A stretch of 54,750 bases of DNA from Sphingomonadaceae bacterium (lineage in GTDB: Bacteria > Pseudomonadota > Alphaproteobacteria > Sphingomonadales > Sphingomonadaceae): positions 1-54,750 of the forward strand of contig JAIOYN010000002.1 in NCBI GenBank assembly GCA_021741065.1, in the 5' to 3' direction. Within the stretch, counting starts at the first letter, position 1; every line of letters begins with the position of its first letter. Below, piece after piece: positions 3,824 through 50,287 of this stretch. The notes beneath the pieces were generated by a model. It was not told the origin of the DNA. It saw only the letters and a program-made list of their open reading frames with translations, and ran no database searches. A program made the position numbers and the translations under genes.

Positions 3824-3850
3824 TCGGTTTTATATTCGCGTAGAATATCT

Positions 3851-11935: not shown

Positions 11936-11938
11936 AAC

Positions 11939-15185: not shown

Positions 15186-15186
15186 A

Positions 15187-16365: not shown

Positions 16366-16380
16366 CAATCTTCTCTCCAT

Positions 16381-25687: not shown

Positions 25688-25736
25688 ACGACGCGCTGCC
25701 GGCCTGGCATCCACGGATGGATGACAGATCCGACTA

Positions 25737-29287: not shown

Positions 29288-29688
29288 CAACCTACGCGGC
29301 GGAATGTGGCACATGGACGACGCTCGATCTCGCCGGGGTCGACAGCAACAAACTCAACCTCATCGTCGCACCCATAAGCCGACCAGTCATTCTCCCCAGT
29401 CGCCTCTAGCCGGACAAGTAGTTGAACACCCTCGGGCAGTTTCACCACGCCAATGGCATAAGGCAAATCACCCTCAAACCCTTCGGGCGCACCTTGGCGC
29501 AAGACGCAGAAGCTGTGCAATACGGCCTTGCCCGACGATTTTACCCAGCCGAGATTATCAGACTGGCAATGCGGACAGGCATAGCGCGGCCACATATTGG
29601 GTTTGCCGCAGTCATGACAATTCTGGATCAGCAGGTCTCCGCCAGCAAGGCCTGCACGGAAATCGGATACGATAACAGGTGTTTTCAT
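29287..29688 (-). CDS. DUF35 OB-fold/zinc-ribbon protein (thiolase partner)
   Basis: A 133-residue protein with an N-terminal zinc ribbon (CHDCGKPNMWPRYACPHC, residues about 20-37) and an OB-fold (about 45-130). DUF35 proteins bind thiolase-fold enzymes as accessory subunits. In steroid side-chain breakdown they pair with Ltp2-type aldolases. Here it lies 3 bases behind a thiolase-like gene that lacks the nucleophilic Cys, exactly the setting for such a complex. Confidence 0.88.
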   Translation of the reverse strand: MKTPVIVSDFRAGLAGGDLLIQNCHDCGKPNMWPRYACPHCQSDNLGWVKSSGKAVLHSFCVLRQGAPEGFEGDLPYAIGVVKLPEGVQLLVRLEATGENDWSAYGCDDEVEFVAVDPGEIERRPCATFRRVG

Positions 29689-29691: not shown

Positions 29692-30918
29692 TCAGGCCCC
29701 TAATTTCGTGCGTTCGAGCAAAAGGATCTGCGCATCCATGTAGGAGCCGCCTGTGCCGCCAATGATCGCACGTTCGCAGCCTTCAACCTGACGCTTTGCA
29801 GGCGCACGGTGCAGCAATTGGCGGATACCTTCGACCAGCAAGGCCGTGCCGCCGCCAACGCCCGTATGCCCCGCCGAAAGCAGCCCGCCATTGGTATTCA
29901 TCGGCAACTTACCGCCAGGATCACCATGGCCCGCAGCAAACCAGCGCGCTCCTTCTCCCTTTTCGGCGACGCCGATTCCCTCCAGTGCGATCGCCGTGAC
30001 TGCAGCATAGCTGTCATAGATTTCGCCAATGTCCGCGTCCTTAGGACCCCAGCCCGATTGGTTCCACGCCCGCTCCGCCGCCAAGGGCCAGCCAAGCACA
30101 GCTTGATCAGATTCTTGGCTCAAACAGTAATGGCTGACGCAGCCCCCAGAGCCCGCAACTCTGACGCCGCTGCTGATGCCACGTTTTTTCGCGACACCAG
30201 CGCTCGTCATCACAAAAGCGCAGGCCCCGTCGGCCATTGGCGGGCATTCAAAACTGTGCAGCGGGTCAGCGACCATGCGCGAGGCGAGTATCTGCTCAAC
30301 CGTCAGTGGCTTGGTGTAGAACATCGCATTTTCGTTGAGGTTCGCCCATTTGCGCAATGTGACACAGACCGACGCCAGTTCCTCCGCCGTGCTGCCCGAC
30401 GCGTGCATATAGCGCCGCATTATCATAGCGCCGATGGCATTGAACTGGATGCCCGTCGGCAATTCCCATTCGCCGGGGATGCCGTTTTTCGACAACATGG
30501 TGATCATCTCATTAAGGTCAGCTGAACCCCAGCGTTCACATTGGAGCACTAACACGTTTTTTGCGTGACCTGTTGCGATCAGTCCGTGGGCTGCGCGCAC
30601 CGCGTTGTCGCTGGTCGACCCGCCGGAATGCACCATGAAGCTCGACTTGCATGAGCCGTGGATTCCCAGCTCTTCTGCCATGCGCGAGAAGACCAGATCG
30701 GCCTGATCCGCGCCGCTGTGCAGGCACGGGATCAGCAGGATCGTGTCGATATCCCTTGGCACCATCCCCGCATCCCTGAGTGCCATGACGGCGACGCTTG
30801 TGAGGCCCTCAATGAAGCTGCGATCCGGAAACTTTCCGGTCGGGATTTCTCCAACGCCCACGAACACGGGGTCATTCTCCTGACCCGCGTCGACATGCAA
30901 TTGCCAATTTTCTGTCAT
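29692..30918 (-). CDS. Thiolase-fold protein without nucleophile (Ltp2-like aldolase candidate)
   Basis: A 408-residue thiolase-superfamily (lipid-transfer/SCPx-like) protein. At the nucleophile site, where true thiolases have CASGG, it reads VHSGGS (96-101), so the Cys is Val96. The second block is NTNGGLLSAGHTGVGG, and the C-terminal Cys is also absent. Such proteins in the Ltp2 group do not thiolyse but break a 3-hydroxyacyl-CoA by retro-aldol reaction, with a DUF35 partner. EIYDSYAAV (about 310) offers Tyr residues of the kind used there. The flanking genes are DUF35 and MaoC. Function is inferred from this set. Confidence 0.85.
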   Translation of the reverse strand: MTENWQLHVDAGQENDPVFVGVGEIPTGKFPDRSFIEGLTSVAVMALRDAGMVPRDIDTILLIPCLHSGADQADLVFSRMAEELGIHGSCKSSFMVHSGGSTSDNAVRAAHGLIATGHAKNVLVLQCERWGSADLNEMITMLSKNGIPGEWELPTGIQFNAIGAMIMRRYMHASGSTAEELASVCVTLRKWANLNENAMFYTKPLTVEQILASRMVADPLHSFECPPMADGACAFVMTSAGVAKKRGISSGVRVAGSGGCVSHYCLSQESDQAVLGWPLAAERAWNQSGWGPKDADIGEIYDSYAAVTAIALEGIGVAEKGEGARWFAAGHGDPGGKLPMNTNGGLLSAGHTGVGGGTALLVEGIRQLLHRAPAKRQVEGCERAIIGGTGGSYMDAQILLLERTKLGA

Positions 30919-31386
30919 TCAAACTCTCCGCTTTGCCAGCATGGTCTGGAGAAACGTCATCACCTCGTCTCCCGATTGATTGCGCACTGAATAGGTGACC
31001 GCCAGTATGCCATGTTTTCCGCCCGTCGTTTCATGCCCCGTAACTTCGGCAACGACGTGAAGAGTGTCGCCCGCGAACACCGGCTTAGTCGCCTTGAGGC
31101 CCGTTATTTCGACAAGCGCGGCAATGGCGTCGCCATAAAATCCGCTGCCCCCAATCAAGCCGACTGCGAGCGAGAAAGTCAGCGGACCATGCGCGATGCG
31201 TTGGCCAAAGCGCGAGCCTTCCATGAACGTAGCATCGGTGTGAAGTTGGTAATGATCACCCGTCAGCCCGGCAAAACTGGTTATATCGCCAATATCGACT
31301 GTGCGACCTCGCGTCGTCATCGTGTCGCCAAGTTCGAAATCTTCAAAGCATTTTACCTGCGGATCAGAGAAGGCGCGCCGTGTCAT
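30919..31386 (-). CDS. MaoC-family (R)-specific enoyl-CoA hydratase-like protein
   Basis: A 155-residue single hot-dog domain. The hydratase-2 motif is present: Asp44 and His49 in LTGDHYQLHTD, and GQRIAHGPLTFS. These enzymes hydrate an enoyl-CoA to the 3-hydroxy form, which an Ltp2-like aldolase could then cleave. The gene heads the operon. Its ATG is preceded by GAGG, and operator B1 ends only 10 bases upstream, so transcription must begin very near or within the operator. The stop touches the next ATG (TGAATG). Confidence 0.88.
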   Translation of the reverse strand: MTRRAFSDPQVKCFEDFELGDTMTTRGRTVDIGDITSFAGLTGDHYQLHTDATFMEGSRFGQRIAHGPLTFSLAVGLIGGSGFYGDAIAALVEITGLKATKPVFAGDTLHVVAEVTGHETTGGKHGILAVTYSVRNQSGDEVMTFLQTMLAKRRV

Positions 31387-31396: not shown

Positions 31397-31412
31397 AAAC
31401 AATCATTTGTTT
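31397..31412. promoter_or_regulatory. Palindromic operator B1 (AAACAA-N4-TTGTTT)
   Basis: AAACAA-TCAT-TTGTTT with perfect arms directly in front of the MaoC gene and its seven-gene operon. The same 16-base site is found at four other promoters of the right arm. Confidence 0.75.
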
Positions 31413-31463: not shown

Positions 31464-32054
31464 TTAACCGCGCAAGCCCATAAATAGAGTGTCCGCGATG
31501 ACCCCGCCAACTTCCTCGGGTGAAAGCGCTCCATTGGGCGTGAGCCATTCCGGGGTCCAGTTTAGCGCGCCGAGTATCGACAGCACAGCGATACGGCGGT
31601 TCAGAGTCGCTCGAAATGTTCCAGATTTGATGCCATCCTCGATCACACCGATGAACGCCTGCTCGTAATCACGGCGTTTGCCAATAGCGGCTTGAATGTT
31701 GTCATCTCCCAAAAAGCGCCATTGATGGAAAACAACGAGTGAGCGTTCGGGATTATCAGCGACGACGGATACATGGGCGATCACCATTGCACGGAGCCTC
31801 TCCGCGGGTGTCGCGCCCGATACAATGTGCGGCCGAACAGCGTCGAGAAACCTGCGAATTCCATCGTCAACAATATCGACGAGCATCGCCTCTTTGCTCG
31901 CGATGTGCGCATAGAGGCTTCCTGGCAGAACCCCGACTGCTTTCGCAATGTCCCGCATCGATGTGCCGCTAAACCCTTGCTTGCCAAACAAGTGCACTGC
32001 CGCGTCCATGATGGCTTCTCGCGGGCCGCTAGCCGGATCGATAACAGTTGCCAC
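31464..32054 (-). CDS. TetR-family regulator 2 (right-arm candidate repressor)
   Basis: A 196-residue TetR protein. The DNA-binding domain contains DAAVHLFGKQGFSGTSMRDIA and VGVLPGSLYAHIASKEAML. The ligand domain has VVFHQWRFLGDDNIQAAI and ends ALNWTPEWLTPNGALSPEEV, a TetR_C_24 pattern as in KstR2, which senses CoA thioesters. It lies 14 bases behind an acyl-CoA dehydrogenase gene whose promoter carries operator B2, so it probably controls its own synthesis together with the AAACAA-N4-TTGTTT regulon. Confidence 0.9.
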   Translation of the reverse strand: MATVIDPASGPREAIMDAAVHLFGKQGFSGTSMRDIAKAVGVLPGSLYAHIASKEAMLVDIVDDGIRRFLDAVRPHIVSGATPAERLRAMVIAHVSVVADNPERSLVVFHQWRFLGDDNIQAAIGKRRDYEQAFIGVIEDGIKSGTFRATLNRRIAVLSILGALNWTPEWLTPNGALSPEEVGGVIADTLFMGLRG

Positions 32055-32068: not shown

Positions 32069-33217
32069 TTAACCCTCCCGCCCCAGCCCCATCGACTTCG
32101 CGATAATGCTGCGCAAAATTTCATTTGTGCCCCCGCCAACCATGCCATGCTTGGCTTCGCGAAAGTAGCGCTCCATATGATATTCAGGCAGTTGAGCATA
32201 GCCGCCAAGTGCTTGCATTCCGTTGAAGGCAATCTGAAACAGTGTCTTGGCAGTGAACAGTTTGGCTTTGGCCACATCGGCATTGGCGGGTTCGCCGCGT
32301 GCCAGTTTGTCAGCGGCATAATAGACCAACAGCCGCGCCGCCGCGAGTTCGGTTTCGTCGTCAGCCATACGGTGTTTAAGCACCTGATAGGATGAGAGCT
32401 TCTTGCCAAATGCGTCACGTTCGCTCAAATATTTTTTGGTGTCATCCAGCGCTGTGCGCGCATTTCCGACCTGCGAGGCAGCGATGCTCAGTCTCTCTAG
32501 ATCGAGATGCTCGCCGATATAACGCCAGCCCTTGCCAACTTCCCCGAGCAACGCCGACTTCGGGATCCGCATGTCGTCCATAAAGAACTCGGTGGTGCCG
32601 AGACTCTTACGAACAAGAGTATTCATCTTCTTGATATGCAACCCCGGCGTTGTGTTGGGCACCAAAAATAAAGAGAAGCCGTCATAACGCTCTTGGCTTG
32701 TACGCGCCAGAATGGCGATGGTTGCGCCGGGCAACTGGGCACCTGAACACCAGACCTTATTGCCATTGAGCACCCATTCGTCGCCGTCGAGCCGAGCTGT
32801 GGAGCGACCGCCTGCTGCGTCAGATCCCGATTGGGGCTCGCTTATGGAAATTGAAAATTTAGCATCGCCACGCAGGAAGGGTGCAATGTATTGCGCCTGC
32901 TGCTCAGGCGTGCCGTGAGTGCAGATATTCTGAACAGTGAACATCGAGGTCATGATACAGGCGGCGGTATCTAAGCTATATTTACCAATTGCTTCGCAGA
33001 AGATCGCAAACATGACCGGGTCGGTCTGCATGCCGCCAAGTTTCTCCGGCACAAGCAGGCCGAGCCAGCCAAGGTCAGCCATCTTGCGAAATACATCTTC
33101 GGGAAACTCCCGCGACAAATCATGTTGGAGCGTATAATCTTGACCAACCTCGCGGGCCATGAAATCCTGAACGGTGTCGTTCCACATCCGCTGCTCATCA
33201 CTAAAGCGGAAATCCAT
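32069..33217 (-). CDS. Acyl-CoA dehydrogenase
   Basis: A 382-residue acyl-CoA dehydrogenase (MDFRFSDEQRM start, normal for the family). Segments seen are FSISISEPQSGSDAAGGRST, WVLNGNKVWCSGA, and the C-terminal MVGGGTNEILRSIIAKSMGL. The catalytic Glu of YEGT is Gly at this place, so the base must come from elsewhere, as in the isovaleryl-CoA dehydrogenase type. ATG 33217 is chosen because the longer frame to 33292 crosses operator B2. It is divergent from the ligase at 33310 and co-transcribed with TetR gene 2. Confidence 0.9.
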   Translation of the reverse strand: MDFRFSDEQRMWNDTVQDFMAREVGQDYTLQHDLSREFPEDVFRKMADLGWLGLLVPEKLGGMQTDPVMFAIFCEAIGKYSLDTAACIMTSMFTVQNICTHGTPEQQAQYIAPFLRGDAKFSISISEPQSGSDAAGGRSTARLDGDEWVLNGNKVWCSGAQLPGATIAILARTSQERYDGFSLFLVPNTTPGLHIKKMNTLVRKSLGTTEFFMDDMRIPKSALLGEVGKGWRYIGEHLDLERLSIAASQVGNARTALDDTKKYLSERDAFGKKLSSYQVLKHRMADDETELAAARLLVYYAADKLARGEPANADVAKAKLFTAKTLFQIAFNGMQALGGYAQLPEYHMERYFREAKHGMVGGGTNEILRSIIAKSMGLGREG

Positions 33218-33247: not shown

Positions 33248-33263
33248 AAACAAATGTTTGTTA
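33248..33263. promoter_or_regulatory. Palindromic operator B2 between the ACAD and ligase genes
   Basis: AAACAA-ATGT-TTGTTA, one base off the perfect arms, centred in the 92-base gap between the divergent starts at 33217 and 33310. One bound dimer could block both promoters. Confidence 0.72.
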
Positions 33264-33309: not shown

Positions 33310-34965
33310 ATGGCTCCGCAAAAACGCCGTAATCTGCTTGAGGCCCGTTACCCTAAATGGGAGGTGTTGTCCATTTCCTGCAGGCTGGACCGTGCGGCTG
33401 AGTGTTGGGCAGATCGACCCCTGATCATCACTGATGCACGCACATGGAATTATGGTGAGGTGCAGGCCTGGTCGCGACAGATCGCCTCAGGCCTTATCGC
33501 TCACGGCCTTAAGGCTGGCGAACATGTCGCCCTCGATATGGCCAACTACCCTGAATTCACTGCAATCAAGTTCGCCATCGCACGGGCTGGTGCGGTCTGC
33601 ATTCCGGTCAATTTCCTATTGCGCGGGCAAGAACTTGCCTATGTGCTAGATCAGTCTGATGCGGCGATGCTGATCACGATGGAGGAATTCCGTGGGCACG
33701 ATTATCTTGCAGACTTGAACCAAATCAGGCCGGCACTGCCCAAAATTCGTCATGTCTTTTCGCTTGCGGGAATCGATGCCCTGATTGCTAGTGCCACACC
33801 AGACAGCGATGCGGAGCTCAGCGCACGGGAGGCGGCGGCAGATGGCACAGCACTGAGTGATATCCTCTACACTTCGGGAACGACCGGGCGTTCCAAGGGC
33901 GTGATGCTGACCCACGACATGGTTCTCCGCGCGGCCTTTTCGTCGGTGATTGCGGGCGCGTTCGAAGAGAACCGGCGGATGCTGTTTGCCATGCCGATGT
34001 ATCATGTCTTTGGTTATGCCGAGTGCCTCCTCGCGGTGCTTTTCGTCGGCGGTGCGATCATCCCGCACCTTGTTTTCGATGCGGCAGAGATGCTGAATGC
34101 AGCGGAACGCCATCGCGCGACTGAGCTGGTCGCTGTGCCGATGATGACATCGAAATTGATTGAGGTTGCGCGCACGCGCGGCTTCGATTCAACCCATCTA
34201 AAGGTCATGTTCAACAGCGGGGGGGTCAATCCACCGGGGATATGGAGCGATATCCGCGAAGCCCTTCGTCCGCGAGAAATGCGGATGGGCTACGGCATGA
34301 CTGAGACATCAGCGTCGGCGACATCAAATGTGGTCGAGGATGACGATGTAAAGCTGCTGACCACGCATGGCTGCCTCAAACCCGCAAGCGTCGCAGGCGA
34401 TCCTGCGTTGGGCGGGCGCGTTGCGGTCTATAAAACGATTGACCCTGAAACGCTCACCGACCTGCCCCCTGATATGGAGGGCGAGCTTGTTGTGACCGGC
34501 CCCATCGTCACGCGCGGCTATTACAAAAAGCCAGAAGAAACAGCGGCCGCCTTTACTGTGGATGGCTGGCTTCGGACGGGCGACCTCGGACGGGTTAGCA
34601 CAGATAACTATGTGACACTAACCGGACGGATCAAGGAAACCTATCGTTGTAATGGCGAAATGGTGATGCCGCGCGAAATTGAGATGTTGTTCGACGATCA
34701 TCCACAGATTGAGCAAGCGTTGGTCATCGGCGTGCCGGATCCACGAGCGGGTGAAACTGGCTGCCTCTGCATTGTACAGCGCGGGATTGATCGTCCCGAT
34801 GCCGACGCGCTTCTCGCGACATGCGCTGCAAAGCTCGCACGGTTTAAGGTGCCCCGCCATGTGCTGTATTTTGCAGCTAGCGATATTCCCCTGACTGTCA
34901 CAGGTCGCCCGCAGAAATTCAAACTCGCAAAGCTTGCTATTGAGCGCATCCAAGGAGAGACATGA
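33310..34965 (+). CDS. Acyl-CoA ligase (AMP-forming)
   Basis: A 551-residue ANL ligase. P-loop YTSGTTGRSKGVMLTHD, A5 motif GYGMTETSASATSN, A7 LRTGDLGRV, A8 GRIKETYRCNGEMVMPREIE and catalytic lysine in VTGRPQKFKLAK. The A8 hinge ETYRCNGE differs from the common DMIxxGGEN, marking a distinct subgroup. It is transcribed divergently from the dehydrogenase/TetR operon, and its last bases overlap the next gene (ACATGATG). An acid released by ring opening is a plausible substrate. Confidence 0.9.
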   Translation: MAPQKRRNLLEARYPKWEVLSISCRLDRAAECWADRPLIITDARTWNYGEVQAWSRQIASGLIAHGLKAGEHVALDMANYPEFTAIKFAIARAGAVCIPVNFLLRGQELAYVLDQSDAAMLITMEEFRGHDYLADLNQIRPALPKIRHVFSLAGIDALIASATPDSDAELSAREAAADGTALSDILYTSGTTGRSKGVMLTHDMVLRAAFSSVIAGAFEENRRMLFAMPMYHVFGYAECLLAVLFVGGAIIPHLVFDAAEMLNAAERHRATELVAVPMMTSKLIEVARTRGFDSTHLKVMFNSGGVNPPGIWSDIREALRPREMRMGYGMTETSASATSNVVEDDDVKLLTTHGCLKPASVAGDPALGGRVAVYKTIDPETLTDLPPDMEGELVVTGPIVTRGYYKKPEETAAAFTVDGWLRTGDLGRVSTDNYVTLTGRIKETYRCNGEMVMPREIEMLFDDHPQIEQALVIGVPDPRAGETGCLCIVQRGIDRPDADALLATCAAKLARFKVPRHVLYFAASDIPLTVTGRPQKFKLAKLAIERIQGET

Positions 34966-35252
34966 TGTTCATCGAACGTGCTGAAGTGCCCGTGAAAGAA
35001 GGCATGGAAGAAGCCTTTGCCGCTGCAATGGCCGCACGGGGAGGGGCAATCCTCGCTTCAGCTCCCGGCTGCGCATCTGTTCGTGTCGGACGCGGAGTGG
35101 AAAATCCCGGGAAGTTCATCCTGCTATTGGAATGGGATTCGGTCGCGTCGCACGTTGCGCTCACAAAGACCCCTGCATTTGAGGAATTCAAGGCACTTGT
35201 CGGGCCATTCTTCGCTGGGGCAGCGAACATGGAGCATTTTGAAATGGCGTAA
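34962..35252 (+). CDS. Antibiotic-biosynthesis-monooxygenase (ABM) domain protein
   Basis: A 96-residue ferredoxin-like alpha+beta protein. The pattern MFIERAEVPVKEGMEEAFAA, then APGCASVRVGRGVENPGKF and LLLEWDSVASHVALTKTPAFEEF, is typical of ABM/YgiN-like proteins. Some are cofactor-free monooxygenases or heme-degrading enzymes; many are uncharacterised. The start overlaps the ligase stop, so both are made from one message. It converges on the ferredoxin gene, 4 bases away. Confidence 0.8.
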   Translation: MMFIERAEVPVKEGMEEAFAAAMAARGGAILASAPGCASVRVGRGVENPGKFILLLEWDSVASHVALTKTPAFEEFKALVGPFFAGAANMEHFEMA

Positions 35253-35256: not shown

Positions 35257-35457
35257 CTATTCCGCTACCAAAGTAATAGCCCGCTCCGGGCAAGATTTCA
35301 TCCCGCGTTTGGCATTTTCCTCTTCGCCCGCAGGCACGTCGATTTCGTTACTGCGATCGGCATTGTAACCGTCGTCGTCAAGAATGAAGACGTTGGGGGC
35401 ATATTTTGCGCAGCGGCCGTGACCGGTGCAATGTTCACCGTCGATTTTAACACGCAT
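35257..35457 (-). CDS. Ferredoxin with CxxHxxC cluster motif (P450 partner)
   Basis: A 66-residue acidic ferredoxin. The cluster ligands lie in CTGHGRC (C-x2-H-x2-C near the N-terminus) and a later SCPE. Replacement of the second Cys by His is typical of ferredoxins that carry a 3Fe-4S cluster, or a His-ligated 4Fe-4S cluster, and feed electrons to bacterial P450s. It is the third gene after the P450 and the hydrolase on the minus strand. No ferredoxin reductase gene is present in the window, so a general reductase must serve. Confidence 0.93.
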   Translation of the reverse strand: MRVKIDGEHCTGHGRCAKYAPNVFILDDDGYNADRSNEIDVPAGEEENAKRGMKSCPERAITLVAE

Positions 35458-35479
35458 CCTATATTCTCCTTGTCGGCGC

Positions 35480-36286
35480 TTATTGCGCGTCTTTCATACG
35501 GCCTTCGGTGGGCAAAGCATCGGTCGCTGCCAAAGCTTCAAGTCCTAGGCCAAGGCTCAGCCCTTCGTGCATCAAGCGCTTGTACCGCTGGGTGAGCGCA
35601 ACGCGGGTATAGCGCCGTGTCAAGATCGGCTTAGCTGCGATCATATTCGCGATCTCCATCGTCCGGGCTTTCAATTGGTCCGCGGTGACGACTTCGTTGA
35701 CCACCCCCCAATCGAGTGCCTTTGCCGCGTCGATCTCTTGCCCCATGATCAGGAAATATCGACCCCGATTTGGCCCGAGCAGGTGCGGCCAAACTACATG
35801 TGCCCCGTCACCAGGAACAATCCCGGACATGAAATGGGGCGCATCCTGAAACAACGCAGTATCGCTGGCGATTACAATGTCAGACATCACCGGGATTTCC
35901 GGATGGATGCGTGCAGGGCCGTTGATAGCGCTAATCACGGGCACTTCTATGTCGAGCAGGTTATTAAGCAACCGCCGTCCATCATAGAAGGTTAGATCCC
36001 ATTCGCCGGCAGTACTAAGCTTGAAGCTGCCTGCATTGATATCGGCGCACCAGTTCGCGCCCGTGCCGGTCATCACCACGACCTTGTTCTCGCGATCTGC
36101 GCCGACATCGGTGAAGCAATAGCCGAGCTCTTCATGCGCAAGCGCGCTCCACACCAGTGGCCCACCATCGGTATGGAACCTCATCACGAGCACGCCCTCA
36201 TCGGTACGGTATAGCTCGATATTCTCATACCGATCCTTATACTGCTCGAGGCGCGGGGCCGGACCATGATGTACCTTGGCGCTCAT
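35480..36286 (-). CDS. 6-Oxocamphor hydrolase-like retro-Claisen C-C hydrolase
   Basis: A 268-residue crotonase-fold protein that would hydrolyse the C-C bond between two carbonyls of a cyclic beta-diketone. It is unusually like 6-oxocamphor hydrolase: the segments HPEIPVMSDIV and HFMSGIVPGDGAHVVWPH match that enzyme as I recall it. Its known catalytic residues His122, His145, Asp154 and Glu244 appear at 128, 151, 160 and 250, a constant shift of six; pocket Trp40 matches Trp46. The CoA-type GG oxyanion motif is missing (NGPARIHPE). ATG 36286 overlaps the P450 stop (ATGA) and is preferred to GTG 36295. The beta-diketone is probably made by the neighbouring P450 and a dehydrogenase. Confidence 0.87.
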   Translation of the reverse strand: MSAKVHHGPAPRLEQYKDRYENIELYRTDEGVLVMRFHTDGGPLVWSALAHEELGYCFTDVGADRENKVVVMTGTGANWCADINAGSFKLSTAGEWDLTFYDGRRLLNNLLDIEVPVISAINGPARIHPEIPVMSDIVIASDTALFQDAPHFMSGIVPGDGAHVVWPHLLGPNRGRYFLIMGQEIDAAKALDWGVVNEVVTADQLKARTMEIANMIAAKPILTRRYTRVALTQRYKRLMHEGLSLGLGLEALAATDALPTEGRMKDAQ

Positions 36287-37530
36287 TTCGGCCACACCAG
36301 TTGAAGTTCACGCATTGAGCGCAGAAAGCCGGTGACATAGACCGGCGCAGTACCTTCCCGCACTGAGAATTCGGGGATGCGCCGGAGCCATTCTTCTATA
36401 GTCGCAGTCAGTTCGAGCCGGGCGAGGTTCGAGCCAATACACCGGTGCGGACCAACGCCAAAGGTCGAATGAAGGATTGTCTCGCGCTTGATATCAATCT
36501 TTTCAGGCTCTTCCATCGCACGCGGATCACGTGAGGCTGCACCCCAGGTGAGCATCACGAAATCACCCTCCTTCATTTCGGTACCCGCCACTTCCACGTC
36601 GCGGGTGCAGGTCCGACCAAGTGCAATCACCGGCGGGAAGACGCGGCTGAATTCTTCAATCGCATTCTCAATGAGCGAAGGATCATCAATTAGCTGCTGG
36701 CGCACCTCAGGATGCATCGCAAGATAATGAATGGCAGAGGACATGACGAAGGTGGTTGTCGCAATGCCGCCAAAGGTCAGATCGACAAGAATGCTTACTT
36801 TATGATCCCAGGGCGCTTCGGTGCCATCATCATAAATGACGCCTTCAAGGATGGTGTCGATGACGTCGCCGCGTTTCGGCTGGGTCGCGCGCCACCTAAG
36901 ATGCGTATCGAGATAGGTAAACACGCGCGCCATGTGCGCTGGGCGCTCTTCTGCGGGCAGCGCAAACGTGCCTTGTTCCACGCCTTCAACGAGCATCGCA
37001 AGATCGTCGATCGGCACACCGAGCACGTTCTTGAAAAAAGCCCAACCAGGCAGAAGCGCACCGAACTCGCTTATAAACTCGCACTCACCCTTTTCGATGA
37101 AGGTATCTATCAAGACATTGCAATCCTTGCGGATGACGTCCTCATAGGTGGCGATAACCTTCGGGCTCATATGCGGATTGAGCTTGTGCCGCCAGTTAGT
37201 GTGCATCGGCGGGTCAGACTCTTCAGGCATCAGATAAGGAAGGCCCTCTGGCCGATTGGGCATATAGCCCTTGGCGCTACTGAATGTACGCCAATCCTGT
37301 GCGACGCGCCGCACTTGTTCATTGGTGTTGACCAAGTGATAGCCGGTACCAGCCTTGCTGTAAGAGATAGGGCATTTATTGACCATGAAAGTGAGCACTT
37401 CATCAAATCGGTCGTTAAACATCGGATCATCAAGATCAAAGTCGCGCGCTATGTCCCGCCCGAACCGAGCTTTCAACACTTCTGGGGCGACCTCGGGATC
37501 AGCCTCCATATCGGCACGGGTCTCATTCAT
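36283..37530 (-). CDS. Cytochrome P450
   Basis: A 415-residue soluble class I P450 for hydroxylation with O2. Heme loop FGVGPHRCIG (357-366) with Cys364; ExxR at 293-296 (EFSR). In the I-helix, normally GGxDT, it reads GGIATTT, so the acidic residue is Ala257 while the oxygen-activating Thr258 remains. The size and the linked ferredoxin fit the P450cam-type arrangement. It heads the three-gene operon with the retro-Claisen hydrolase and ferredoxin, 32 bases downstream of operator B3. The substrate is likely a cyclic hydrocarbon or ketone. Confidence 0.94.
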   Translation of the reverse strand: MNETRADMEADPEVAPEVLKARFGRDIARDFDLDDPMFNDRFDEVLTFMVNKCPISYSKAGTGYHLVNTNEQVRRVAQDWRTFSSAKGYMPNRPEGLPYLMPEESDPPMHTNWRHKLNPHMSPKVIATYEDVIRKDCNVLIDTFIEKGECEFISEFGALLPGWAFFKNVLGVPIDDLAMLVEGVEQGTFALPAEERPAHMARVFTYLDTHLRWRATQPKRGDVIDTILEGVIYDDGTEAPWDHKVSILVDLTFGGIATTTFVMSSAIHYLAMHPEVRQQLIDDPSLIENAIEEFSRVFPPVIALGRTCTRDVEVAGTEMKEGDFVMLTWGAASRDPRAMEEPEKIDIKRETILHSTFGVGPHRCIGSNLARLELTATIEEWLRRIPEFSVREGTAPVYVTGFLRSMRELQLVWPK

Positions 37531-37555: not shown

Positions 37556-37583
37556 TTGACAAAAACAATCGTTTGTTTAAATC
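37556..37583 (+). promoter_or_regulatory. Predicted promoter of the second BVMO operon
   Basis: TTGACA (37556-37561), a 16-base spacer, then TAAATC (37578-37583). Operator B3 lies between the two elements. Confidence 0.5.
37563..37578. promoter_or_regulatory. Palindromic operator B3 between the P450 and second BVMO operons
   Basis: AAACAA-TCGT-TTGTTT with perfect arms in the divergent gap 37531-37692. It fills the spacer of a plus-strand promoter (TTGACA at 37556-37561, TAAATC at 37578-37583), so binding should repress that direction and probably both. Confidence 0.77.
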
Positions 37584-37692: not shown

Positions 37693-39330
37693 ATGACAAC
37701 CGAACTTGACTTTGACGCCGTTGTGATTGGCGCAGGACTGACGGGTCTTTACCAAGCCTACCGGCTCCGCGAGATGGGTTATCGGGTGCTTGGCGTCGAA
37801 GCCGCGGAAGATATCGGAGGTGTTTGGCATCACAATCGCTACCCGGGCTGCCGCATCGACTCTGAAAGCGAAGTCTACGGCTACTTCTGGAACGAACAAC
37901 TAATGCAGGAATGGAGCTGGTCCGAGCGGTTCGCTGCTCAGCCTGAAGTTCTCCGGTACATACACCGTGCAGCCGAGATTATGGATATTCGAAAGGACTT
38001 CATCTTTAACGCTAAAGTGCACAAGGCGACTTTTGACGATGTTTCAAATGCATGGTTGCTTGAATTCCAGCAGGGGCACCGGGCACCCGTGACCGCACGC
38101 TTCGTTTTCTCGGCACTAGGGCCTTTGTCTGCAACACAGATGCCTCGTATTTCTGGCATCAACACCTTTAAAGGCGAAAGCTATCATACTGCTGCATGGC
38201 CGCGAGACCCAATTGGTTTTGGGCCCGCCAAGCTCGACTTCTCTAACAAGCGCGTCGCAGTGATCGGTACAGGTTCGACCGGCGTTCAATTAATCCAGGA
38301 AATGGCCAAGGTGGCGAAGCACCTCACCGTGTTTCTGCTCGAACCGAATTGGTGCACGCCCTTGGGCAATGGGCCGATGACGCAGGAGCGGATGGATTAT
38401 ATCAAGTCGCACTACAACGAATTCACTGCTAAATGTGACGCATCGATCGCAGGCTTTCCGCATGAATTTGATCCTCGAAACCTTTTCGAGGTTCCTAAAG
38501 AGGAACGCGACGCAAAATTGGAAGAATTGTACAAGGGGCCTGGTTTCTCACTTTGGCTAGGTACTTTTCAGGATGGGCTTTCAGACCCTGAAGCAAATCA
38601 ATATCTTTCAGACTTCGTTGCAAAAAAAATTCGTCAGCGTGTGAAAAATCAACATATCGCTGAGTTGCTGATCCCCAAAGACCACGGGTTCGGAACGCGC
38701 CGCGTACCTTTGGAGACCAATTATTATGAGGTCTACAATCAGGACAATGTGTCAGTTGTCGATTTAAACACAACACCCATCACACGGATCACGCCCGACG
38801 GCATCCAGACCACTGACGCTTTGCATGAGCTTGATGCTATTCTCTATGCGACGGGCTTTGATGCAGTGAAAGGCGCATGGAACCGTATCGACATACGCGG
38901 CACTGGAGGCGTTGCACTCAAGGACGAATGGGCGAAGGGCATCAAAACCTACATGGGCATGCAGTGCCCCGGATTTCCAAATTTCTTCATGTTGGTGGGC
39001 CCACATAGTGGAGCAACCTTCTGCAACATTCCGCGATGTTCAGCTCTCGCCGTGGATTGGTTAAGTGACATGATCGCTGAGGCGAAAAATGGCGGCGTTC
39101 AGCGCATCGAACCGGAAATCGCCGCCGCGGAGAGTTATAGCGAGTATTGCGCCAAATTGATGGGCAAGATGCTGTTAGGTCAGACAAATTCCTGGTTCAC
39201 TGGGATCAACAAGAACATTGAGGGCCGCGACAAACGCGAAGCGCTGTTGTTCGTCGGCGGCAACCCCAAGTTTCGGGAATACTGTGACGATGTGCGAGAA
39301 AACGGCTATAAGGGATACATCATGACATGA
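37693..39330 (+). CDS. Type I Baeyer-Villiger monooxygenase (cyclohexanone-monooxygenase size)
   Basis: A 545-residue FAD/NADPH enzyme converting a ketone to an ester or lactone. FAD motif VIGAGLTG (11-18), the exact fingerprint FKGESYHTAAWP (159-170), and the NADPH motif IGTGSTG (191-197). Its length equals the classical cyclohexanone and cyclopentanone monooxygenases, without the N-terminal domain of the other BVMO in this window. AAAAGGAG precedes the ATG. It is followed by an SDR and an SMP-30 lactonase on the same strand: alcohol oxidation, ring expansion to a lactone, and lactone opening in one operon. Confidence 0.94.
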   Translation: MTTELDFDAVVIGAGLTGLYQAYRLREMGYRVLGVEAAEDIGGVWHHNRYPGCRIDSESEVYGYFWNEQLMQEWSWSERFAAQPEVLRYIHRAAEIMDIRKDFIFNAKVHKATFDDVSNAWLLEFQQGHRAPVTARFVFSALGPLSATQMPRISGINTFKGESYHTAAWPRDPIGFGPAKLDFSNKRVAVIGTGSTGVQLIQEMAKVAKHLTVFLLEPNWCTPLGNGPMTQERMDYIKSHYNEFTAKCDASIAGFPHEFDPRNLFEVPKEERDAKLEELYKGPGFSLWLGTFQDGLSDPEANQYLSDFVAKKIRQRVKNQHIAELLIPKDHGFGTRRVPLETNYYEVYNQDNVSVVDLNTTPITRITPDGIQTTDALHELDAILYATGFDAVKGAWNRIDIRGTGGVALKDEWAKGIKTYMGMQCPGFPNFFMLVGPHSGATFCNIPRCSALAVDWLSDMIAEAKNGGVQRIEPEIAAAESYSEYCAKLMGKMLLGQTNSWFTGINKNIEGRDKREALLFVGGNPKFREYCDDVRENGYKGYIMT

Positions 39331-39403: not shown

Positions 39404-40147
39404 ATGGCTCTACTTGAGGGCAAAACGGCGGTCATCACGGGCGGGGCGCGGGGCTTGGGTTCGGCGATCGCAACTGCCATGGCAGCCGAAGGCGCGCATG
39501 CGGTTGTAGTAGATCGAAACAGTGAAGCAGCATCTGAGCTTGTGGCGCAAATCAACGCGTCTGGTGGTTCGGCCACGTCCGAGGTTCTGGACATCGGTGA
39601 TCGCGAAGCCGTCAAGGCGTTCGGCGAGCGTATGATAGATCAGTTTGAACGGATCGATGTTCTTGTGAATAACGCGGGCATTGCGCCCCGCATCCGTCCA
39701 CAAGATCCCGACCAGATGCAAAAATGGGATCAGGTGGTCAGCATAAACCTGACCGCTCAGTGGGACATCACCGTCGCTCTCCTGCCTGGCTTGAAGCACC
39801 CCGGAGCGAGCGTGATCTTTCTCTCTTCGATTGCCGGATTCTCTGCGCCGAGATCAAGCGCAGCTTACGGTGCGACGAAGGCCGCCATCCGCTCTCTGGT
39901 GCAATATTTTGCACGAGACCTTGGGCCGACCGGTGGCCGCGCCAACGGACTGGCACCTGGCCGGATGAAAAGCGACCTCATGACCGTGACAGGTGAAGCA
40001 GGCGACAAGTTTATTCAGCGTCTGCCGCTCGGGCGCGTTGGCGAGACTGAGGAGATCGTCGGCCCCGCCGTCTTTCTCGCCTCCAACATGTCCTCATATG
40101 TGACAGGTGTGACGATTCCCGTCGACGGCGGCTATCTGGCGCTGTGA
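39404..40147 (+). CDS. SDR-family oxidoreductase
   Basis: A 247-residue short-chain dehydrogenase. Cofactor motif TGGARGLG (12-19), NNAG (89-92), and catalytic Ser142, Tyr155 and Lys159 in FLSSIAGF and AAYGATK. In this operon (BVMO, SDR, lactonase) the simplest role is oxidising a cyclic alcohol to the ketone used by the BVMO. The ATG at 39404 is preceded by AAAAGG. It ends 25 bases before the lactonase start. Confidence 0.92.
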   Translation: MALLEGKTAVITGGARGLGSAIATAMAAEGAHAVVVDRNSEAASELVAQINASGGSATSEVLDIGDREAVKAFGERMIDQFERIDVLVNNAGIAPRIRPQDPDQMQKWDQVVSINLTAQWDITVALLPGLKHPGASVIFLSSIAGFSAPRSSAAYGATKAAIRSLVQYFARDLGPTGGRANGLAPGRMKSDLMTVTGEAGDKFIQRLPLGRVGETEEIVGPAVFLASNMSSYVTGVTIPVDGGYLAL

Positions 40148-40172: not shown

Positions 40173-41129
40173 ATGACTAAGATAGAGCCATTTTCAATTG
40201 CCGACCTGTCGGAGATCGGAAGCGGTTTGAACCGGCCGGAATGCGTATTGGCCGCGCCAGATGGATCGCTCTACACAGGCGACTGGACGCTTGGCATTGC
40301 CCGGATTGCGCCAAACGGAACTACCGGTCCAGCAGTCGAGGTGGATTTAATCGCGCAAGGCTTCCGACCCAATGGTATTGCCCTCTTGCCTGACGGCGAT
40401 TTTCTGATCACGAATATGGCTCGTGCAGGCGGCGTCTGGCGAGTTAGTCCGCGCGGGCACGTTAGTCCTTTTGCGACTGAAGTTGCAGGTCAACCAATTC
40501 CGCCGACAAACTTTGTGCTTGTTGACGGCGAGCGAACCTGGATCACGATCAGCTCGACCGAGCGCAAGCATGAACATTTCACCTCTGCTGCAAACACGGG
40601 CAAAATATTGCTGTTGAAGGACGGCCATTTATCCGTTGCAGTAGATGGACTGAACTGGACCAACGAAGTGCGTGTCTCACCTGGGAGCGAGTACCTCTTC
40701 GTCAATGAAACTTTCGCCTGCCGGACCACCAGATATGACATTGCGTTGGACGGCACGTTGAGCAGTCCAGTTCAGCTTAGCTTCCCGCAAGACATTTATC
40801 CCGATGGCATGGCTTTCGATTCGGAAGGGGGTCTATGGATTACCTGCGTGATCTCGAACCGCCTGATCCGGGTCGCTCGAGATCTGACTTGGACCATCTT
40901 GCTGGAAGATCCTGATCCGGCACTGGCCGACATCGCGTCATCCTATGCCAAAGGGAAGCTGACTTGGGATCAAATCTCCCGGAGCCGGGGATCCCAGCTT
41001 GCAAACCTGTCCAGCATCGCTTTCGGCGGGCCAGATTTGAAATCAGTCTATCTGGGAGGCTTGGGACATGACAGCGTGCGGGTTTTACGCTCGCCGGTGC
41101 CGGGCGTGCCAATGTGCCATTGGGAATAG
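40173..41129 (+). CDS. SMP-30/gluconolactonase-family protein (lactonase candidate)
   Basis: A 318-residue six-bladed beta-propeller. Typical blade segments are RPECVLAAPDGSLYTGDW, FRPNGIALLPDGDFLI, NEVRVSPGSEYLFVNE and YPDGMAFDSEGGLWITC, where the Asn and Asp residues bind the metal (Ca or Zn). Members hydrolyse lactones such as gluconolactone. Being directly behind a BVMO and an SDR makes opening of the BVMO lactone product the likely job. It converges on the MDR oxidoreductase gene with 81 bases between. Confidence 0.85.
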   Translation: MTKIEPFSIADLSEIGSGLNRPECVLAAPDGSLYTGDWTLGIARIAPNGTTGPAVEVDLIAQGFRPNGIALLPDGDFLITNMARAGGVWRVSPRGHVSPFATEVAGQPIPPTNFVLVDGERTWITISSTERKHEHFTSAANTGKILLLKDGHLSVAVDGLNWTNEVRVSPGSEYLFVNETFACRTTRYDIALDGTLSSPVQLSFPQDIYPDGMAFDSEGGLWITCVISNRLIRVARDLTWTILLEDPDPALADIASSYAKGKLTWDQISRSRGSQLANLSSIAFGGPDLKSVYLGGLGHDSVRVLRSPVPGVPMCHWE

Positions 41130-41210: not shown

Positions 41211-42218
41211 TCAGGCGATTGATAACACCAGCTTACCAAAATGATTGCCCGCGCCAAGCTCGACCAATGCTTCGGGCAACTGGTCAAAGGCGAAAAGTTT
41301 ATCGACCACCGGCCTGATCTTCGAATGTGAAAGTGAGCGGTTCATCGCGGCGAACATCACGCGTGATCCGACTTCCTTGCCCCGCAGCGTGACGCCGGTC
41401 TGCAAGATGTGGACCGGGTCAATCTCGCCGGGCGCGATGAGGCCGATAATGTGTATCCAGCCGCCGCGCTTGGTGCTCTTTATTGAGCGAAGCAGCGTCG
41501 CGCCGCCGCCATTTTCAATGACATGGTCAACACCCCGCCCACCGGTAATCTCGCGCACGGCGACATCCCAATCAGGCGTCGTAACATAGTTGATAACATG
41601 GTCCGCACCAAGCGCTTTGGCGCGCGCCAACTTTTCGTCACTTGAAGAAGTGACGATCACTTCAGCTCCTGCCGCTCGGGCCATTTGCAACGCGTGGATC
41701 GAAACGCCACCCGTTCCGAGCGTTAAAAGGGTGTCTCCGGCTGAGAGCGGACACGGCCCGTGAAGGCTATTCCAAACGGTGAGGCCTGCGCAGGGCAAAG
41801 TCGCCGCCTCTTCATAACTCAAATGATCGGGGAATTTGAGAACGCCCATCTCGTCAAACGTGAGATACTCAGCCGCGACGCCGTCAATGCAGCCGCCGAG
41901 CGACCAGGCCGTATCGCTGTCCTGCATCTCGCCCGCCATCCAGCTCTGGCAGTAAAGCGGCGTCACTCGGTCACCGCGCTTGAGTGTCGTAACGCGGCTA
42001 CCAACTTCGACCACTTCACCAGCACCATCGGACAGCGGAATGATCACTTCCTGCTGAACGCGCGGGAACTGCCCCGTCACGACCAACAGATCACGAAAGT
42101 TGAGCGATGCCGCATGCATCTTTATCAGCACTTGCCCTGGCCCAAAGCTCGGCATCGGGAGATCGACGATCTGCAGCGCGGCAATCGGCTCGCCCATGCG
42201 GTATTGATAGGCCTTCAT
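41211..42218 (-). CDS. Medium-chain dehydrogenase/reductase, zinc-independent type
   Basis: A 335-residue MDR protein with a GroES-like N-terminal half and a nucleotide-binding half (TLGTGGVSIHALQMARAAGAEV). The zinc ligands of alcohol dehydrogenases are absent: the usual Cys-x-x-Asp/His region reads SLNFRDLLV and GHE reads SDGAG. This favours a quinone-oxidoreductase or enone-reductase role over alcohol oxidation. It is the second gene behind the SDR at 42230-42976, 11 bases apart, under operator B4. Confidence 0.88.
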   Translation of the reverse strand: MKAYQYRMGEPIAALQIVDLPMPSFGPGQVLIKMHAASLNFRDLLVVTGQFPRVQQEVIIPLSDGAGEVVEVGSRVTTLKRGDRVTPLYCQSWMAGEMQDSDTAWSLGGCIDGVAAEYLTFDEMGVLKFPDHLSYEEAATLPCAGLTVWNSLHGPCPLSAGDTLLTLGTGGVSIHALQMARAAGAEVIVTSSSDEKLARAKALGADHVINYVTTPDWDVAVREITGGRGVDHVIENGGGATLLRSIKSTKRGGWIHIIGLIAPGEIDPVHILQTGVTLRGKEVGSRVMFAAMNRSLSHSKIRPVVDKLFAFDQLPEALVELGAGNHFGKLVLSIA

Positions 42219-42229: not shown

Positions 42230-42976
42230 TTAGCAGGCGGTCATACCACCGTCGATGACATGTTCCATGCCGGTAATGAACGAAGATTCGTCAGAAGCTA
42301 GGAACAGAACCAGCTGGGACACTTCACTCGGCTTGGCCATCCTCTTGAGCGGTATCACATCGCCCGCGCCGCCGCCATTTTCATCCGTAGCCGCGACCAT
42401 CATCGGGGTCAGGATATAACCGGGATGAACTGAATTGCAGCGAACGTTGTTTGGGCCATATTCAGCGGCGACCTGCTTGGTCATCCCGCGCACGGCGAAC
42501 TTGCTGCCGACATAAGCCAAATTGGGCGACCCCATGCACGCAATCATCCCGGCAATAGACGAAATATTCACAATGGCTCCGCCACCAGCTTTGATCATCG
42601 AAGGGATAACCGCCTGCATCCCAAGATAGACGCCCAGTTGGTTTATGTCGCATACCAGCTGATAGTCGGCCTGTGAGAAATCGACCGTATGGGCAATGGT
42701 ACCAATGATGCCAGCATTGTTAATGAGCACGTTGATGGTGCCGAACTTTGCTTCACCCTGGTCGACAACAGCCTTCCATTCAGGCGCGAACCGAACGTCC
42801 TGCTTGATAAACATCGCATTCTCGCCAAGGCTGTCGGCCAGCGCCTGCCCATCTTTTTCGTTGACGTCGGTCAGGATCACCTTCGCCCCTTCAGCGACGA
42901 ACATCTTAGCATGCGCTTCGCCCATACCCTGCGATGCACCAGTTATGATGGCTACCTTGCCTGAAAGTCTTCCCAC
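42230..42976 (-). CDS. SDR-family oxidoreductase (GTG start)
   Basis: A 248-residue short-chain dehydrogenase. TGASQGMG (12-19), NNAG (86-89), catalytic Ser140, Tyr155 and Lys159 in NISSIAGM and AYVGSK. The GTG at 42976 has GGGAG eight bases upstream and begins at the family start (MGRLSGKVAIITGA). The longer TTG-started frame to 43030 reaches almost to operator B4 and is rejected. Likely oxidises a secondary alcohol. It forms an operon with the MDR gene. Confidence 0.9.
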   Translation of the reverse strand: MGRLSGKVAIITGASQGMGEAHAKMFVAEGAKVILTDVNEKDGQALADSLGENAMFIKQDVRFAPEWKAVVDQGEAKFGTINVLINNAGIIGTIAHTVDFSQADYQLVCDINQLGVYLGMQAVIPSMIKAGGGAIVNISSIAGMIACMGSPNLAYVGSKFAVRGMTKQVAAEYGPNNVRCNSVHPGYILTPMMVAATDENGGGAGDVIPLKRMAKPSEVSQLVLFLASDESSFITGMEHVIDGGMTAC

Positions 42977-43031
42977 GTCTGCTCTCCCGTTGCACTTCTC
43001 AAACTCCGATTTAGACCGTAGTTGAGTCAAA

Positions 43032-43047
43032 AAACAAGTGTTTGTTT
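43032..43047. promoter_or_regulatory. Palindromic operator B4 upstream of the SDR/MDR operon
   Basis: AAACAA-GTGT-TTGTTT with perfect arms, 55 bases before the GTG start of the SDR gene on the minus strand. Confidence 0.75.
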
Positions 43048-43131: not shown

Positions 43132-44304
43132 CTATTTCTTGGGAGCGGATGCAGCGTGCTTGGACGCGAACGCGCCGATCGCATCGGACTGTGCCTTGGC
43201 TAGTTCGTCGCGCACGGCGCGAGCATAGAGTTCACTGGATTTAAGACGGCGATTGGTCTTCTTGAAATGCGGGATCACATATTCACCAAACAAATGATAA
43301 TGGTGCTTTTTAGCATTCCAGTTGGCCCAGTTGTGATCGAAGAGCAGAAAAGCGCCGAAGCCGCCATTAGACAAATCTTGCAGATTCTCGATCTGCTCAA
43401 TGGCATCCTCGTAGGTACCTATGACCGCTGATCCAGACGATAAGGCCCATTCTATGTAATCATCGAGCGAGCTTCCTGTCGGCACCATCTGGGGTGTCGG
43501 GGTGGTGTGTTGCAAATAGTCACAGAACTCGCGCAGACCAAAGGCGACATCTTTGAGCGCTTGATCTCTGGTCTCGGCGAGGTGCATCAGCCCGACCAGC
43601 CGCCATTTGTCACGATCCACTGTCTTGTTGCATTCCTTCGCCCGCGCTTCTGCAACATCCCAATGCATCGCGAGTACATCGACGCCCGCTTTCATCGTCG
43701 CGCCGATTGAGATCAATCCGATGCCATGCTGACCGGCCAGGCGCGGCCCCGAAGGTGACACGATCGCAGCGGCAAGCACTTCTGGATGGGGGTCCTGATA
43801 GAAATCAAGCTGAATTCGGGCGTTTACCAGTTTATAACGCTTGGTTTCGATCGAGATCGGCTCATCGCTGGTGAGCAGGTGCATGAGAACTGCTGTATCC
43901 TCTTCCAGCGCATCACGCTGCTCCGACGGATGAATACCAAGCATGGCAGCATCCGTGGCCAGCGCCCCTGGCCCCAAGCCAAGCATAACCCGACCACGTG
44001 TAAGATGATCCAGCATCGCAAGGCGATCTGCGATCCAGAGTGGATTGTGATAAGGCAGCGAAACAACGCCTGTGCCAAGCCGGATGTGTTTTGTCTGCGC
44101 CGCGACATGCGCAATGAACATCATCGGATCACCAATCGGCTCTGCACCGCCCGAGTGATGCTCACCAATCCATGCTTCATCAAACCCGATACTGTCCATC
44201 AACTGCACAATCTCGGTGTCGCGCTGCAGCGCATAGGTCGGATTGTAATTCACCGGTAAATGATGTGGCGGCACAAATGCACCAAAACGAAGCCGATCAG
44301 ACAT
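43132..44304 (-). CDS. Luciferase-like flavin monooxygenase (LimB-like group)
   Basis: A 390-residue TIM-barrel monooxygenase using reduced FMN supplied by a separate reductase, or possibly F420. Signature segments are FDEAWIGEHHSGG, IRLGTGVVSLPYHNPL and GRVMLGLGPGALATDA. This combination is shared with limonene 1,2-monooxygenase-like enzymes as I recall them. It is probably the last gene of the operon starting at 48224. Terpene or ketone oxygenation is possible, but no flavin reductase gene is present in the window. Confidence 0.85.
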   Translation of the reverse strand: MSDRLRFGAFVPPHHLPVNYNPTYALQRDTEIVQLMDSIGFDEAWIGEHHSGGAEPIGDPMMFIAHVAAQTKHIRLGTGVVSLPYHNPLWIADRLAMLDHLTRGRVMLGLGPGALATDAAMLGIHPSEQRDALEEDTAVLMHLLTSDEPISIETKRYKLVNARIQLDFYQDPHPEVLAAAIVSPSGPRLAGQHGIGLISIGATMKAGVDVLAMHWDVAEARAKECNKTVDRDKWRLVGLMHLAETRDQALKDVAFGLREFCDYLQHTTPTPQMVPTGSSLDDYIEWALSSGSAVIGTYEDAIEQIENLQDLSNGGFGAFLLFDHNWANWNAKKHHYHLFGEYVIPHFKKTNRRLKSSELYARAVRDELAKAQSDAIGAFASKHAASAPKK

Positions 44305-48322: not shown

Positions 48323-48338
48323 AAACAATCGTTTGTTT
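48323..48338. promoter_or_regulatory. Palindromic operator B5 (AAACAA-N4-TTGTTT)
   Basis: AAACAA-TCGT-TTGTTT with perfect arms, 7 bases from operator A5 and identical to B3 in all 16 positions. Confidence 0.75.
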
Positions 48339-50250: not shown

Positions 50251-50287
50251 AATCCCTCTCCTCAAGATCGAATGCTAGCCAGTTACC

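Follow-up and report, generated by a model that had tools for sequence, protein, structure and literature searches.

The window considered here is a stretch of 54,750 nucleotides, positions 1 to 54,750 of contig JAIOYN010000002.1 in the Sphingomonadaceae bacterium assembly GCA_021741065.1, and its subject is a crotonase gene situated between a cytochrome P450 gene and a ferredoxin gene. The three genes are read on the minus strand from 37530 to 35257. Those of the P450 (415 residues) and the crotonase (268 residues from its ATG) overlap by four bases (ATGA), and a gap of 22 bases separates the crotonase stop codon from the ATG of the ferredoxin (66 residues). A preliminary description of this DNA had placed all three together here, and the position of a 6-oxocamphor hydrolase (OCH)-type crotonase between a P450 and a ferredoxin is confirmed. 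The assembly to which the window belongs amounts to 1.9 Mb and is 84% complete. Closely related DNA is available from a 3.2-kb contig of an uncultured Sphingomonadales metagenome-assembled genome (MAG), 99.7% identical to the matching stretch of the window, and from a Sphingorhabdus MAG that is 95% identical to the window across 9.5 kb. The group comprises:

36283 to 37530, minus strand: cytochrome P450, CYP101-like, a candidate ring hydroxylase (Pfam PF00067; best PDB matches 4dxy and 3nv5)
35480 to 36286, minus strand: OCH-type crotonase of 268 residues, a candidate coenzyme A (CoA)-independent beta-diketone hydrolase (identity to 1o8u, residues, tree, AlphaFold, Foldseek and VIA-align)
35257 to 35457, minus strand: single-cluster ferredoxin (CxxHxxC...CP), a candidate electron donor of the P450 (Pfam Fer4_15/Fer4_13; best PDB match 4id8)

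Judged by its sequence and predicted fold, the crotonase is of the OCH type and not an enoyl-CoA hydratase. It is 60% identical (146/242 aligned residues) to the Rhodococcus OCH (1o8u; gene name CamK). Against the PDB, phmmer scored OCH at 329 bits (E 1.8e-97) and the beta-diketone hydrolase of Anabaena (ABDH) at 257 bits, while the best chain named enoyl-CoA hydratase received only 75 bits. The AlphaFold (AF2) model of the crotonase, with a predicted local distance difference test score (pLDDT) of 92.1, has as its top Foldseek matches the OCH entries 1o8u and 1szo at a root-mean-square deviation (rmsd) of 0.8 Å. VIA-align likewise superposed the model on OCH at an rmsd of 0.8 over 249 residues with a Z-score of 40.9, compared with 31.1 for the best enoyl-CoA hydratase entry. 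Among 25 of the 65 NCBIfam families matched, none passed its cutoff.

The alignment shows that the catalytic and pocket residues of OCH are kept as W46, H51, H128, H151, D160 and E250. Trp46, His128, His151, Asp160 and Glu250 stand exactly where the preliminary description had put them, numbered from the ATG at 36286, and H51 is the counterpart of the fifth residue of the OCH set, His45. In OCH this set consists of His45, His122, His145, Asp154 and Glu244, with Trp40 in the pocket. The acyl-CoA oxyanion motif had also been claimed to be lost, and rightly so: CoA hydratases carry a GGGxEL oxyanion loop, in the place of which the crotonase has ARIHPEI, and all eight CoA-type crotonases aligned from this genome have Gly in the H128 column. 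The Pfam ECH_1 match and the beta-oxidation genes nearby would agree with an ordinary CoA-dependent enoyl-CoA hydratase or isomerase belonging to a beta-oxidation cluster. We reject this reading as extremely improbable on account of the bit scores, the replaced Gly and the placement of the protein outside the CoA-type crotonases.

That placement comes from a tree, a check that had been proposed from the outset, of 98 rows: the window protein, its relatives (thinned from the named loci, and from other genomes), OCH, ABDH, a copy from a Rhodococcus plasmid and eight CoA-type crotonases. The window crotonase and OCH fall within one 36-row clade (support 100/99), and the eight CoA-type crotonases of the same genome lie outside of it (100/99). 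A firm position among CoA-dependent hydratases, which would have refuted the preliminary description, was thus not what the tree gave. Within the clade, OCH belongs to a subclade of 14 actinobacterial sequences (100/93) and the window crotonase to one of 21 proteobacterial sequences (100/98). Ten columns were compared (W46, H51, F88, L90, H128, E130, H151, F152, D160 and E250), and these equal OCH in the clade members compared, the exceptions being Val at 90 in L062 and Leu at 152 in L082. The F88 and L90 columns vary widely outside the clade.

ABDH (2j5g, 2j5s) is itself a CoA-independent crotonase with the same His/His/Asp/Glu set and is 46–47% identical to the window protein, as would be expected if the crotonase were a generic beta-diketone hydrolase of the Anabaena kind with no connection to the P450. 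However, ABDH lies in a separate clade together with cyanobacterial and three sphingomonad-family rows, and its pocket differs, with Phe, Leu, Val and Leu in place of Trp46, Phe88, Leu90 and Phe152; the Anabaena type is ruled out as the closer class by these columns and the tree. The overlap of the P450 and crotonase genes, the contiguity of P450, OCH and ferredoxin in 10 of 18 other proteobacterial loci and a palindrome upstream of the P450 (described below) further argue against an unrelated P450, and we regard this alternative as very improbable. By sequence, the window hydrolase joins the OCH class as a new member.

The preliminary description had called retro-Claisen crotonases rare, which holds only for characterized enzymes; relatives are common in genomes, as a scan for the OCH-type pattern gave at least 594 matches, of which at least 516 were confirmed to encode relatives. 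A match at E up to 1e-40 occurs in 27 of 397 genomes of the family. The layout had also been considered undescribed in sphingomonads. No paper on it was found among those listed in searches of the open-licence PubMed Central (PMC) literature, but the ten contiguous loci above show that it is not unique. Among the PDB matches of the window crotonase is 3q1t from Mycobacterium avium, which is named an enoyl-CoA hydratase and was proposed from its local site to be a beta-diketone hydrolase (PMC3584854), so CoA-independent enzymes may exist among the crotonases annotated as hydratases.

Five gene units in the window are preceded by a 16-base palindrome, AAACAA-N4-TTGTTT, which carries a single mismatch at one of the sites. 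These units hold the P450-OCH-ferredoxin group, a divergent Baeyer-Villiger monooxygenase (BVMO) operon, a short-chain dehydrogenase (SDR), an acyl-CoA ligase, an acyl-CoA dehydrogenase (ACAD), a hydratase and a candidate retro-aldolase with its DUF35 partner. The sites, and their candidate reader, are:

31397 to 31412: palindrome AAACAATCATTTGTTT, before the MaoC-aldolase-DUF35 genes
33248 to 33263: palindrome AAACAAATGTTTGTTA, with one mismatch, between the ACAD and CoA ligase genes
37563 to 37578: operator-like palindrome AAACAATCGTTTGTTT, between the P450-OCH-ferredoxin and BVMO-SDR-SMP-30 genes
43032 to 43047: palindrome AAACAAGTGTTTGTTT, before the SDR at 42230–43030
48323 to 48338: palindrome AAACAATCGTTTGTTT, before an amidohydrolase gene
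31464 to 32054, minus strand: TetR-family regulator (TetR_C_24), the candidate reader of the palindrome (Pfam, linkage)

The palindrome was first seen by eye at 37563 and then searched for as a pattern, so that site is not independent evidence. A 15-base form taken from it matches the window 12 times when both strands are read and up to three mismatches are allowed, compared with 1.37 expected, and 0 of 100 shuffles reached that number. A search of four stretches for inverted repeats of at least 8 gave none; the arms of the palindrome span only six bases. The exact 16-mer occurs at four places in the 1.9-Mb genome, all within the window, and with one mismatch allowed at seven places, five of them in the window, compared with six for the reversed control. 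A tighter pattern found five places, namely the five sites (control, one), having been fitted to them; the counts for the whole genome and for 99 related genomes use the plain 16-mer. Five of these 99 genomes contain the exact palindrome at least three times (three to five sites each), and each of them encodes an OCH that shares at least 71% identity with that of the window. A sixth, fragmented genome with such an OCH has one exact site, and the other 93 have at most two; a genome with a 48% OCH homologue has none.

The palindrome also recurs near OCH relatives more widely. In loci taken from named records, with up to two mismatches allowed and Markov-resampled sequence as the control, 53 sites were found in 17 proteobacterial loci (6.0 expected) and 50 in 13 actinobacterial loci (0.6 expected), as opposed to 31 in the 49 loci that encode other OCH-like proteins (21.4 expected). 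Among 16 proteobacterial loci it precedes the P450 gene in eight, the MaoC gene in seven and a 70–87% relative of the SDR at 42230–43030 in four, and it is also found before ACAD and CoA ligase genes. Of the 13 actinobacterial loci, all but L083 have it before OCH, at a distance of 1–14 bases in nine and 67–148 bases in three, and it stands before a TetR gene in 11, ACAD in five and an amidohydrolase in three. From its linkage, the TetR protein at 31464–32054 probably reads the palindrome before all five units.

The BVMO operon runs divergently from the P450, and two dehydrogenase genes lie beyond it:

37693 to 39330, plus strand: BVMO, OTEMO-like (51% identity to OTEMO)
39404 to 40147, plus strand: SDR following the BVMO (Pfam)
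40173 to 41129, plus strand: SMP-30/gluconolactonase-like protein, a candidate lactonase (Pfam PF08450)
41211 to 42218, minus strand: zinc-type alcohol dehydrogenase/quinone reductase, its gene lying downstream of that of the SDR at 42230 (Pfam)
42230 to 43030, minus strand: SDR, start uncertain, a candidate hydroxy-ketone dehydrogenase feeding OCH (operator, linkage, NCBIfam)

The SDR at 42230–43030 has as its best NCBIfam match trans-4-hydroxycyclohexanecarboxylate dehydrogenase (245 bits, under the cutoff of 400), and among 25 of the 230 families matched it passes only the broad “glucose 1-dehydrogenase” subfamily. A relative of 70–72% identity directly precedes P450-OCH-ferredoxin in L047 and L051, and lies about 2 kb before it in L046 (Novosphingobium naphthalenivorans NBRC 102051). 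The type I BVMO fingerprint is FxGxxxHxxxW, and the BVMO contains it as FKGESYHTAAWP. The BVMO and OTEMO are identical at 272 of 532 positions, with 623 bits compared with 457 for the next solved BVMO.

The remaining palindrome-bearing units and their neighbours form a CoA module:

24530 to 25849, minus strand: family III CoA-transferase
25737 to 26543, minus strand: conventional enoyl-CoA hydratase
26553 to 27719, minus strand: thiolase with CASGG
27716 to 29314, minus strand: second acyl-CoA ligase (Pfam)
29287 to 29688, minus strand: DUF35 partner (Pfam zf-ChsH2 and OB_ChsH2_C)
29692 to 30918, minus strand: thiolase-like candidate retro-aldolase (YDSY at 301–304; VHSGG as opposed to thiolase CASGG)
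30919 to 31386, minus strand: MaoC hydratase (Pfam)
32069 to 33217, minus strand: ACAD, its ATG at residue 26 of the longest open reading frame (Pfam)
33310 to 34965, plus strand: acyl-CoA ligase, a candidate activator of the OCH product (Pfam; best NCBIfam match FadD3 family, under cutoff; palindrome at 33248)
34962 to 35252, plus strand: ABM-domain small protein overlapping the ligase at 33310 (Pfam PF03992)
47109 to 48224, minus strand: Amidohydro_2 protein with its own palindrome

YDSY is kept, and Cys is absent from positions 95–98, in all 20 aligned thiolase-like proteins. In these respects the candidate aldolase resembles the steroid side-chain aldolases of the Ltp2-ChsH2(DUF35) and Sal-Shy(DUF35) pairs (6ok1, 9myr), which also have a Y-D-x-F/Y motif, no thiolase Cys, an adjoining DUF35 protein, which Pfam calls ChsH2-type in the window, and MaoC and ACAD nearby. 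It differs from them in being only 24–28% identical, in having Ser at the third motif position and in its predicted substrate, a ring that bears an acetyl arm. Homologues of the Amidohydro_2 protein (35–36%) are also preceded by the palindrome in the actinobacterial OCH loci L056, L057 and L060.

Genes for a CoA ligase, ACAD, MaoC, thiolase-like protein, DUF35, thiolase, enoyl-CoA hydratase, CoA transferase and TetR accompany OCH-clade genes elsewhere, with varying completeness. Relatives of the thiolase-like aldolase and DUF35 accompany OCH at 10 of the 17 loci from Proteobacteria and 12 of the 13 from Actinobacteria but at none of the 49 others; these counts hold at the thresholds used, and several loci are truncated by contig ends. 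On plasmid pR8L1 of Rhodococcus sp. 008, an SDR, a P450 (65%) and a ferredoxin (52%) lie side by side, with OCH (55%), ACAD (64%), MaoC (53%), thiolase-like (63%), DUF35 (47%) and ligase (46%) genes close by. Separately, two adjacent OCH-like genes were seen in Porticoccaceae, Pseudomonadales and alphaproteobacterial MAGs (L074, L092 and L104).

These observations point to a catabolic pathway under operator control that degrades a bicyclic ketone. A bornane, for example camphor, is the most likely substrate, and we consider this reading a probable one. From the observed gene content, residues, clade, predicted fold, palindrome and conservation, we infer the substrate and each reaction as follows. 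The P450, fed by the 66-residue ferredoxin, would hydroxylate the ketone at a second ring carbon, and the SDR at 42230–43030 would oxidize the alcohol to a non-enolizable bicyclic beta-diketone like 6-oxocamphor. The crotonase would then add water and cleave a C–C bond without CoA, using His151/Asp160, His128, Glu250 and Trp46, to yield an oxo-cycloalkyl-acetic acid. This sequence of hydroxylation, beta-diketone formation and CoA-free opening had been outlined in the preliminary description. It is supported by the clade, predicted fold, residues and gene linkage, and its enzyme assignment stands; the dehydrogenase that it requires had been left unnamed, and the SDR fits as the missing enzyme owing to the shared operator and its linkage in L046, L047 and L051. 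Ligase 33310 would make the CoA ester of the OCH product. From this ester ACAD, the MaoC hydratase and the YDSY aldolase, the last together with DUF35, may split off acetyl-CoA in a retro-aldol reaction to give a ketone, which for camphor would be a trimethylcyclopentane-1,3-dione. Hydration at the arm-bearing ring carbon would give a tertiary alcohol that cannot be oxidized, such that 3-hydroxyacyl-CoA dehydrogenase and thiolase would be blocked and a retro-aldolase needed; this would explain why OCH is paired with ACAD, MaoC, aldolase and DUF35 in both phyla. In this genome, the OTEMO-like BVMO, the lactonase-like protein and the SDR may open the remaining ring as a lactone, before or after the retro-aldol step.

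Among candidate substrates camphor comes first, because OCH, OTEMO and CYP101 are camphor enzymes and because P450camr reportedly makes 6-endo-hydroxycamphor, as the title of Grogan 2002 has it. The closest solved P450s by sequence are CYP101D2, CYP101D1 and P450cam, all of them camphor hydroxylases, with CYP101D2 the best match (36%, 125/346). The OCH product is named campholinic acid in a PDB title; this is an oxo-trimethylcyclopentylacetic acid related to the OTEMO substrate, on which OTEMO acts in the form of the CoA ester. According to PMC6027186, OTEMO of Pseudomonas putida converts 2-oxo-4,5,5-trimethylcyclopentenylacetic acid to a CoA lactone.

Several observations weigh against this reading. 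No record was found of a known camphor degrader carrying the cluster, the activity of which is predicted only. Compared with solved members, the P450 falls below the 40% identity that conventionally delimits a P450 family such as CYP101. Its residue in the column of P450cam Tyr96 is Pro. The heme Cys motif is present as FGVGPHRCIG, and the I-helix has GGIATT (GGIATS in one relative), with Ala rather than an acid before Thr in all 13 rows (the window and 12 relatives). Oxygen activation may therefore differ from that of P450cam. The partner of CYP101 is a [2Fe-2S] ferredoxin, unlike the single-cluster CxxHxxC type found here by Pfam and PDB match. Within the stretches examined, 11 of the 13 actinobacterial loci lack a P450 relative of at least 45% identity, and on pR8L1 the SDR beside the P450 is only 43% identical, a 58% SDR lying about 9 kb away. 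L062 is inside the 36-row clade (weak join, 99/67) and lacks the downstream module. The OTEMO-like BVMO does not belong to the core, since just 5 of the 17 proteobacterial loci and none of the 13 actinobacterial ones have it, and two one-mismatch palindromes lie outside the window. The model of the candidate aldolase has a pLDDT of only 71. Thiolases head its structural matches, with Sal coming fifth and Ltp2 ninth; its assignment thus draws not on the fold but on the YDSY motif, the absence of the thiolase Cys and the adjoining DUF35 gene. Section 9 of PMC12329534 gives the motif as YDHF in TcLtp2 and YDCY in CtSal, with an essential Tyr, and the second catalytic residue as Tyr344 in TcLtp2 and Cys304 in CtSal, the C304S variant of which had no detectable activity. 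The window protein has Ser at the Cys304 position, which counts against a simple transfer of mechanism.

The divergence of the P450 leaves room for another terpenoid substrate, and the same chemistry could act on a non-bornane bicyclic or polycyclic terpenoid or on a steroid fragment, an alternative that is unlikely without being negligible. The unconserved Tyr96 position and the resemblance of the aldolase/DUF35 pair to steroid side-chain machinery favour it. Conversely, W46, H51, F88, L90 and F152 equal OCH even though the F88 and L90 columns vary in other clades, OTEMO is the nearest solved relative of the BVMO, and the TetR protein scores 35.7 bits with the KstR model, which has a cutoff of 280 and is thus far from being reached.

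Returning to the pathway for a bornane ketone, we suggest more tentatively that a cross-phylum regulon couples CoA-free retro-Claisen opening to steroid-type retro-aldol loss of acetyl-CoA, yielding a second, monocyclic 1,3-diketone. If true, this would be a general degradation module, with an operator code of its own, by which Sphingomonadales and Actinobacteria break down bicyclic terpenoid ketones. The retro-aldol step would explain why Ltp2-like and DUF35 proteins accompany OCH in two phyla. No description of a palindrome-defined pathway with a retro-aldol module and an optional OTEMO-like branch was found among the papers listed in searches of the open-licence PMC literature. Related systems beyond those compared here are the Rhodococcus NCIMB 9784 camphor cluster and the ring A beta-diketone hydrolase of Jacoby 2025. 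Unlike the Rhodococcus OCH, which it otherwise resembles in identity, fold, clade and checked residues, the window gene is from a sphingomonad, overlaps a P450 gene, is followed by a ferredoxin gene and shares a palindrome with a CoA/retro-aldol module. OCH, which hydrolyses 6-oxocamphor with prochiral selectivity, is known as a biocatalyst, and no downstream route for its product was described in the open-licence PMC literature searched. The cluster offers a candidate gene set and control element downstream of OCH, making the fate of that product testable, and the palindrome may help to find the pathway, its feeding P450s and its dehydrogenases in other genomes. In the P. putida camphor pathway, according to PMC6027186, the substrate of OTEMO (3uov) is reached by diketocamphane monooxygenases and not by a retro-Claisen hydrolase.

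Other genes of the window deserve mention. A luciferase-like monooxygenase (43132–44304) has homologues of 44–45% near OCH in Pseudonocardia and Frankia (L063, L082 and L098) and is possibly a flavin-dependent ketone oxygenase; the name diketocamphane monooxygenase is borne by none of its three PDB matches at E up to 1e-15. A second catabolic run (11159–19930), in which the palindrome does not occur, encodes a putative cyclase, BKACE, SnoaL, a CoA ligase, ACAD, 3-hydroxyacyl-CoA dehydrogenase, enoyl-CoA hydratase and a BVMO of 647 residues with an N-terminal extension of about 130 residues. DUF1254 and DUF1214 are present as two overlapping open reading frames (49157–50265). Before the catabolic genes, on the left side of the window (2961–4844), are genes for a LysM protein and for a holin of the gene-transfer-agent type.

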